From the NCBI GenBank assembly GCA_016213365.1, contig JACRAP010000016.1:1-54356 (forward strand): a stretch of 54,356 nucleotides of DNA, read 5' to 3'. Positions 42,126-42,934 of the stretch are shown in pieces (within the stretch, counting starts at the first letter, position 1; each line of letters begins with the position of its first letter). This DNA comes from Candidatus Berkelbacteria bacterium (GTDB lineage Bacteria; Patescibacteriota; UBA1384; 2-12-FULL-50-11). A program made the translations under genes and the position numbers. The notes under the pieces were generated by a model, which searched no databases, had not been told where the DNA came from, and saw only the letters and a list, made by a program, of their open reading frames with translations.

Positions 42126-42821
42126 TTACTTCTTTTTCACGGCAATTTTGGTAGTTTTTGGTTTTGCCGGCTCAACTTTTGGCGCAACGATTGTTAGCGT
42201 ACCGTTTTCGAGTTTGGCCTCAACTTTTTCTTCCACAATCGGCGAAGCAAAACGGATCGAACGGCTAAATTCGCTGTGTTGCCATTCTCTACGAACGGCG
42301 CTTTTGCCGTCTTTTCGCTCTTCGTGTTTCTTATTTCCAGACACGGTTAAAGTATCTTCGGTCATCTCGATCGTTAAATCTTCGTCGGAGTAACCTGGCA
42401 CTTGAAACTCGATTTCGTACTCTTTCTCATTCTCGTGAATATTCATCGCTCCAACGGTTGTACCAAGCGCTCGCGTCCAATCGCCGCGACCAAAGGTTCG
42501 CTCAACCATATCGTTCATCTCTTCCTGCATTCGATCGATCGCCTGAAACGGGCTCCATGGTGTTAGCTGCATGTTCTGCTCACCTCCTTTCTCGATATTA
42601 TTGTTTTCTAATCGTGTTATTTTAATCCCCTCCACTAATTGCTCGATTGGGCAGTTAAAAAATTCCATCAACGCCAATAATACCGGTGAACTTGGCAGAT
42701 ACTCGCCGCGTTCTAGCGAGATAATCGATTGGCGCGATAAATTCAGGGCTTGTGCCAACTCTTCTTGGCTTAAATCGCTGGCAGTCCGTAATTCGCGCAA
42801 CAGTAATCGAATTTTTGTCAT
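42126..42821 (-). CDS. HTH (XRE/Cro) domain in frame with Hsp20/alpha-crystallin domain
   Basis: LRELRTASDLSQEELAQALNLSRQSIISLERGEYLPS then YEIEFQVPGYSDEDLTIEMTEDTLTVSGNKKHE. Nested SD and ATG at 42572 could give Hsp20 alone (148 aa). Confidence 0.88.
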   Translation of the reverse strand: MTKIRLLLRELRTASDLSQEELAQALNLSRQSIISLERGEYLPSSPVLLALMEFFNCPIEQLVEGIKITRLENNNIEKGGEQNMQLTPWSPFQAIDRMQEEMNDMVERTFGRGDWTRALGTTVGAMNIHENEKEYEIEFQVPGYSDEDLTIEMTEDTLTVSGNKKHEERKDGKSAVRREWQHSEFSRSIRFASPIVEEKVEAKLENGTLTIVAPKVEPAKPKTTKIAVKKK

Positions 42822-42934
42822 TTTATTCTTTAAATGTAAAGCTAACTTTACATAATGTCAATATAGATCTGAAACACTCAACCGTAAAAACTTGTGCGGT
42901 AGACAGAAACAAATAATTACAGCATTCTATATAT

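Follow-up and report, generated by a model that had tools for sequence, protein, structure and literature searches.

A probable heat-shock repressor with a built-in small heat-shock protein in a Patescibacteriota class devoid of HrcA

Results

Architecture of the fusion locus

The analyzed window, a stretch of 54,356 nucleotides from the 560-kb genome of a Candidatus Berkelbacteria bacterium (G000), carries on its minus strand a gene in which an XRE-type helix-turn-helix (HTH) domain is joined to an Hsp20 domain (Table 1). A preliminary description of this DNA had proposed such a fusion, and it proved to be real, as the 231-residue frame spans both Pfam domains and is free of stop codons between the HTH and Hsp20 parts. 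Both matches lie well above the curated cut-offs (HTH_3, E = 3e-14, 53.1 bits against 23; HSP20, E = 3e-19, 69.3 bits against 20.8), placing the protein in the XRE/Cro-type HTH_3 family and, by its alpha-crystallin domain, among the Hsp20 proteins. The latter assignment agrees with the top Foldseek matches, which are small heat-shock proteins (sHsps), with the presence of an N-terminal arm (residues 85-124), and with a C-terminal tail of the I-x-I/V type, which reads KIAV when aligned with its relatives. The HrcA domain PF01628 gave no match on the fusion protein, which places the protein outside the HrcA family. The AlphaFold model (pLDDT 72, pTM 0.38) displays two folded domains connected by a poorly ordered junction, and is uninformative on how the two domains are placed relative to each other.

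Table 1. Coordinates of the features at the fusion locus (positions refer to the window)
Feature	Position	Strand	Remarks
HTH-Hsp20 fusion ORF	42126-42821	minus	231 aa, ATG at 42821; long product, the proposed repressor
XRE/Cro-type HTH domain (HTH_3)	42636-42800	minus	Pfam, residues 8-62
HSP20 / alpha-crystallin domain	42138-42440	minus	Pfam, residues 128-228
Internal Shine-Dalgarno AAAGGAGGTGA	42580-42590	minus	within linker codons K-G-G-E
Nested ORF	42126-42572	minus	internal ATG 42572-42570; 148 aa, complete small heat-shock protein
Operator palindrome TGTAAAG-TTAG-CTTTACA	42835-42852		upstream of the fusion
-35 element TTGACA	42856-42861	minus	read in the sequence; matches the class consensus
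-10 element TACATT	42833-42838	minus	spaced 17 bp from the -35; overlaps the palindrome end by its first four bases

Distribution among relatives

Protein and profile searches of 55 genomes from the class of the window, ranging from 0.5 to 1.3 Mb, detected the fusion or a shortened form of it in 43, while none was found in a sample of 262 genomes that represent other classes of the phylum. Outside the class, three profile matches were strong, and these are stand-alone Hsp20 proteins with no HTH match in the stretches examined. A lineage-specific accident is ruled out by the 43 carriers, and so is a sequencing error hiding a stop between the domains, which the preliminary description had raised, since the fused frame is open in the orthologues throughout the class. 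The same description had called for a survey of split versus fused forms; among the relatives examined, hsp20 is either fused or stands alone without an HTH, and no split pair of HTH and hsp20 genes was detected. A scan of genome contigs with the single fusion protein as query returned only free HTH proteins and no fusions.

The fusions are deeply diverged, with about 35% identity, and their linkers vary in both sequence and length, with the Shine-Dalgarno (SD) and ATG kept. In two genomes, the alpha-crystallin domain is damaged and the HTH intact (G028, locus L197, 144 aa; G011, locus L190, 154 aa), an apparent decay of the chaperone part. Judging by these two forms, the alpha-crystallin domain appears to be dispensable in some lineages, and sensing may differ between lineages. 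By eye, the gene following the fusion in G010 and G011 (L184, L190) codes for a small protein with a cysteine pair that resembles McsA, as though the fusion stood where CtsR does in ctsR-mcsA operons.

A conserved internal start within the linker

The linker of the fusion was previously noted to contain an SD sequence followed by an in-frame ATG. Both were confirmed on the minus strand, where the junction reads AAAGGAGGTGAGCAGAACATG. The 148-residue nested product aligns, over its residues 5-145, with positions 6-146 of the 147 in the NCBIfam model Hsp18_Clos, which describes stand-alone sHsps. As this match runs from end to end, the internal ATG lies where a normal sHsp begins.

Comparison across the class offers a greater level of detail about this site. 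A junction ATG is present in 32 of the 33 fusions whose Hsp20 N-terminal arm is retained, and in 30 of these full-length forms the internal SD reaches an anti-SD energy of -8 kcal/mol or below; the exceptions are G027, which lacks the junction Met, and G023 and G036, which have weak SDs. The median anti-SD energy is -13.1 kcal/mol for the junction ATGs versus -2.9 kcal/mol for 89 other in-frame Met codons, only 5.6% of which reach -8 kcal/mol (P = 6e-14; all P values in this work treat related genomes as independent and are indicative only). Synonymous-codon shuffles of the same genes yield a mean of -8.1 against the observed -12.0 (P = 9e-9), indicating that codon choice, beyond the amino acids alone, favors the internal SD. 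An SD-like site remains in just one of the eight forms devoid of the N-terminal arm (P = 4e-5). Such joint retention of the arm and the internal start fits upkeep for a free chaperone, and a conserved in-frame SD start at the domain boundary is what a nested gene would display. Of the earlier proposal that the locus also yields a free 148-residue Hsp20, the conserved start stands; the two products and their ratio we infer.

The origin of the site may be visible in the linker itself, as GGAGGTGAGCAGAACATG of the window resembles GGAGGTGAGTAAAACATG, which precedes a stand-alone hsp20 gene of another class (G074), and the linker could plausibly be a retained hsp20 ribosome-binding site. This resemblance, together with the persistence of short forms without an internal start in several genomes, would also suit a locus that produces the repressor only, the fusion being the real product and the internal SD and ATG an unused relic of the fused gene. 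We consider this improbable, because a relic would hardly be kept across fusions of such low identity despite the change of linker, nor beat its synonymous alternatives, nor disappear in step with the N-terminal arm. Moreover, G018 and G030 show the fusion as their only hsp20 match, so that free Hsp20 in these genomes would need the internal start.

Operator, promoter and start of the long product

The perfect palindrome TGTAAAG-N4-CTTTACA occurs in exactly six copies in the genome of the window, preceding the fusion, groES-groEL, dnaK, dnaJ, clpP and a gene for a clpC-like ATPase; the same pattern read backward, used as a control, has no copy there. Perfect sites are present in 47 of the 55 class genomes, against a single control site in one of the 55, and in 3 of the 262 genomes outside the class. 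We take these three as chance matches, as they are single sites and the readable ones precede unrelated genes. The two sites in G024, located within or beside unrelated genes, are likewise attributed to chance.

Alignment of the sites to their genes gave the class promoter consensus TTGACA-N17-TACAnT. The palindrome starts 3 nt past the -35 element and ends in the -10 element, thereby filling the promoter spacer, which is how a repressor site is laid out. A putative palindromic operator that overlaps the gene's own promoter is also what is expected of an XRE repressor, and the autoregulation suggested in the preliminary description is strongly indicated by this arrangement. The CIRCE element, TTAGCACTC-N9-GAGTGCTAA, was not found at the promoter of the fusion, which has TGTAAAG-N4-CTTTACA instead and in this respect, too, differs from HrcA-controlled genes. 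For the short or degenerate fusions of G044 and G028, no operator was seen at the fusion itself.

With the transcription start taken 7 nt after the -10 element, transcription in the window is predicted to begin around 42826, so that only 5 nt, without an SD, would precede the ATG. The predicted leader does not exceed 5 nt in 20 of 39 loci, and ten loci have none; exceptions exist, with some long starts, such as that of G039, displaying longer leaders and modest SDs. In 30 of the 31 loci compared, the SD of the internal site is stronger than that of the long start. The simplest reading of these sequences would be that the repressor is translated from a weak leaderless start and the chaperone from a strong one with an SD. 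In five genomes (L036, L106, L108, L148, L152) clpP begins exactly 8 nt past the palindrome, which predicts a leaderless mRNA for this gene as well.

Putative regulon

The distinct operator sites of the class concentrate at a few genes. By BLAST against a small seed set, 114 of 124 sites were assigned, with the fusion itself (34), dnaK (31) and groES/groEL (20) leading, followed by clpP (9), dnaJ (8), clpC (6, as assigned by BLAST), an ABC transporter (4) and grpE (2); ten sites fall outside the seed set. One of the six sites assigned to clpC, in G044, precedes a gene that reads as ftsH. Sites at chaperone operons are what the functional class of chaperone-titrated heat-shock repressors would predict.

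The gene for the ABC transporter ATPase would be an unexpected member of the regulon. It is preceded by a perfect operator in G002, G006, G007 and G047 (L142, L151, L156, L162), and in the genome of the window by an operator with one mismatch (C6:42713; L039 1501-1518). Three of the ten unassigned sites (L110, L138, L158), all from the family of the window (f1), precede a metallophosphatase-like gene, whose product in this family begins with M(D)GKVLVISDxHLT.

Linking the fusion to the operator

Within the genome of the window, the fusion is the sole HTH_3 match detected. Operator sites with at most one mismatch are present in all 43 genomes with the fusion gene or a remnant of it, and are absent, even at one mismatch, from 6 of the 12 genomes without the gene (Fisher P = 3e-5, indicative as above), operator and fusion thus being lost together. 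Fusion, operator (at most one mismatch) and HrcA are all missing in G008, G012, G014, G026, G031 and G034. Operators without a detected fusion gene were found in five genomes, four of which (G033, G049, G052, G053) are just 71-86% complete; the fifth, G001, is a single contig of 95% completeness with a clpP site only. The last of the twelve genomes without the gene is G024, with its chance-like sites.

Two further observations bear on the identity of the binding protein. In family f12, the fusion and a chaperone gene, dnaK in G018 and groES in G030, carry the same operator variant, TGTCAAG-N4-CTTTACA. In addition, the palindrome recurs near the genes of free-standing XRE homologues from Arthrobacter, Clostridium ihumii and other Clostridia, which had been chosen by HTH similarity alone: their 206 kb contain 4 perfect, 7 one-mismatch and 12 two-mismatch sites, versus none for the control. 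In Arthrobacter (L043-L045, around position 2549), the palindrome lies upstream of a gene for a short predicted membrane protein, which is followed by the XRE gene.

HrcA was not detected in any of the 55 class genomes, as opposed to 231 of the 262 genomes outside the class, and an HrcA hidden in the class is ruled out by the lack of any PF01628 match in the 55. Outside the class, CIRCE precedes the hsp20 of G092 (L246), a genome with HrcA; this seems to be the state that the class of the window has lost.

These patterns suggest that the fusion binds the operator. The five genomes with sites and no detected gene might hint that the palindrome belongs to another regulator, the fusion being merely one member of the regulon with its HTH acting elsewhere. 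Such an arrangement is very improbable, given the single HTH_3 match in the genome of the window (in a search that covered HTH_3), the co-occurrence and co-loss of gene and operator, the matching variant in f12, the same palindrome beside the XRE homologues of other phyla, and the lack of HrcA in the class.

Discussion

The domain fusion, the conserved internal start, the operators in the promoters, the regulon, the co-loss and the absence of HrcA are all observed in the sequences. The operator, the control of chaperone and protease genes and the loss of HrcA, which did not figure in the preliminary description, make the fusion more than a curiosity, namely a probable global regulator of the heat-shock response. 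We estimate at roughly three in four the probability that the product of the locus is a heat-shock repressor containing its own chaperone, with free Hsp20 made from the same mRNA, and that this system stands in for HrcA/CIRCE. Direct DNA binding by the fusion, and sensing of stress or substrate by titration, we infer, the latter, as in the chaperone-titrated autoregulation of the preliminary description, from the known behavior of sHsp domains.

In the mechanism that we propose, the long product would dimerize, most naturally by its alpha-crystallin domain, would bind TGTAAAG-N4-CTTTACA by way of the HTH, and would block its own promoter together with those of groES-groEL, dnaK/grpE, dnaJ, clpP and clpC; in some lineages, repression would extend to ftsH and a few other genes. 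The leaderless or near-leaderless start without an SD would probably keep the long product sparse, and initiation at the strong internal SD would produce free Hsp20, probably in excess. Upon stress, unfolded protein would engage the Hsp20 part and draw the repressor from the DNA into sHsp-substrate assemblies, leading to derepression of the entire gene set. Once the fresh supply of free Hsp20 has cleared the substrates together with the other chaperones, the repressor would be freed and the genes shut again.

Other ways of sensing deserve consideration. The HTH or the oligomer might leave the DNA with rising temperature, the Hsp20 part serving mainly for dimerization. HrcA of Campylobacter jejuni is reported to be such an intrinsic protein thermosensor (PMC8533110), and G011 and G028, with their degenerate alpha-crystallin parts, retain both the HTH and the regulon. 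In most genomes the sHsp is complete, with arm and tail, which exceeds the needs of a dimerizer; this point is not decisive, as the nested chaperone may be the reason why the arm persists. We regard a thermosensor as possible, if unlikely. Alternatively, free Hsp20 could act as a co-repressor that mixes with the fusion and stabilizes it, or loads it on the DNA, until substrates titrate Hsp20 away. Fusion and free Hsp20 would share their dimer or oligomer interfaces and originate from the same mRNA, and chaperone feedback is known to modulate the DNA binding of HspR and HrcA (PMC6032397). The sequence does not separate this scheme from one in which the fusion itself binds the substrates, and we consider co-repression rather unlikely.

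On balance, we lean toward the view that the fusion founds a new family of global heat-shock regulators, namely a one-component repressor that uses an sHsp chaperone as its sensing domain and has replaced HrcA throughout the class, with the regulator (from a weak leaderless start) and free chaperone (from a strong internal SD) encoded in one frame as a self-contained feedback thermostat. How chaperones are controlled in small-genome bacteria without HrcA is a question whose answer was not found in the open-access papers searched, and the present sequences allow the regulator to be read together with its probable DNA code and regulon. Chaperone titration would take its most direct form in a repressor with a chaperone physically attached, the nested start suggests a way of keeping regulator and free chaperone in proportion, and the architecture as a whole hints at a compact device for sensing unfolded protein. 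The open-access papers searched yielded no description of an Hsp20-HTH fusion regulator or a chaperone-fused heat-shock repressor, and nothing relevant on the palindrome with XRE proteins or on heat-shock control in candidate phyla.

Comparison with known systems

Like HrcA with CIRCE, the proposed repressor would act on groES-groEL and on operons of the dnaK type by means of an inverted repeat in the promoter, with its output tied to the state of the chaperones. In contrast to HrcA, which has no chaperone domain and is absent from the class, the fusion uses another domain and another operator. HspR with HAIR, where DnaK is the co-repressor, and CtsR with McsA are likewise dedicated repressors of chaperone and protease genes that receive input from protein quality control. 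HspR is of the MerR type and CtsR has a fold of its own, and neither is fused to a chaperone.

The HTH itself belongs to the same subfamily as free-standing XRE repressors of about 70 residues from Arthrobacter and Clostridia and solved structures of the CylR2 type (1utx). The Arthrobacter and Clostridia proteins even share the palindrome near their genes. However, they have no chaperone domain, and no link to heat-shock genes was seen for them. IbpA of E. coli, in turn, is an sHsp that exerts feedback control on its own expression at the mRNA (PMC10474464); it resembles the fusion in being both sHsp and self-regulator, and differs in acting on mRNA translation without an HTH.

Long and short products from one frame by an internal start are known for Cas11b (PMC11899642) and VirF30/VirF21 (PMC5101355). 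The fusion would share this arrangement, with the difference that its short product would be a free chaperone and at the same time the sensing part of the regulator. In VirF, the short form arises from a leaderless mRNA, whereas for the fusion it is the long form that is predicted to be leaderless. The system would work like HrcA/CIRCE or HspR, yet it belongs to neither family, and there is a serious chance that it represents a new family of regulators.
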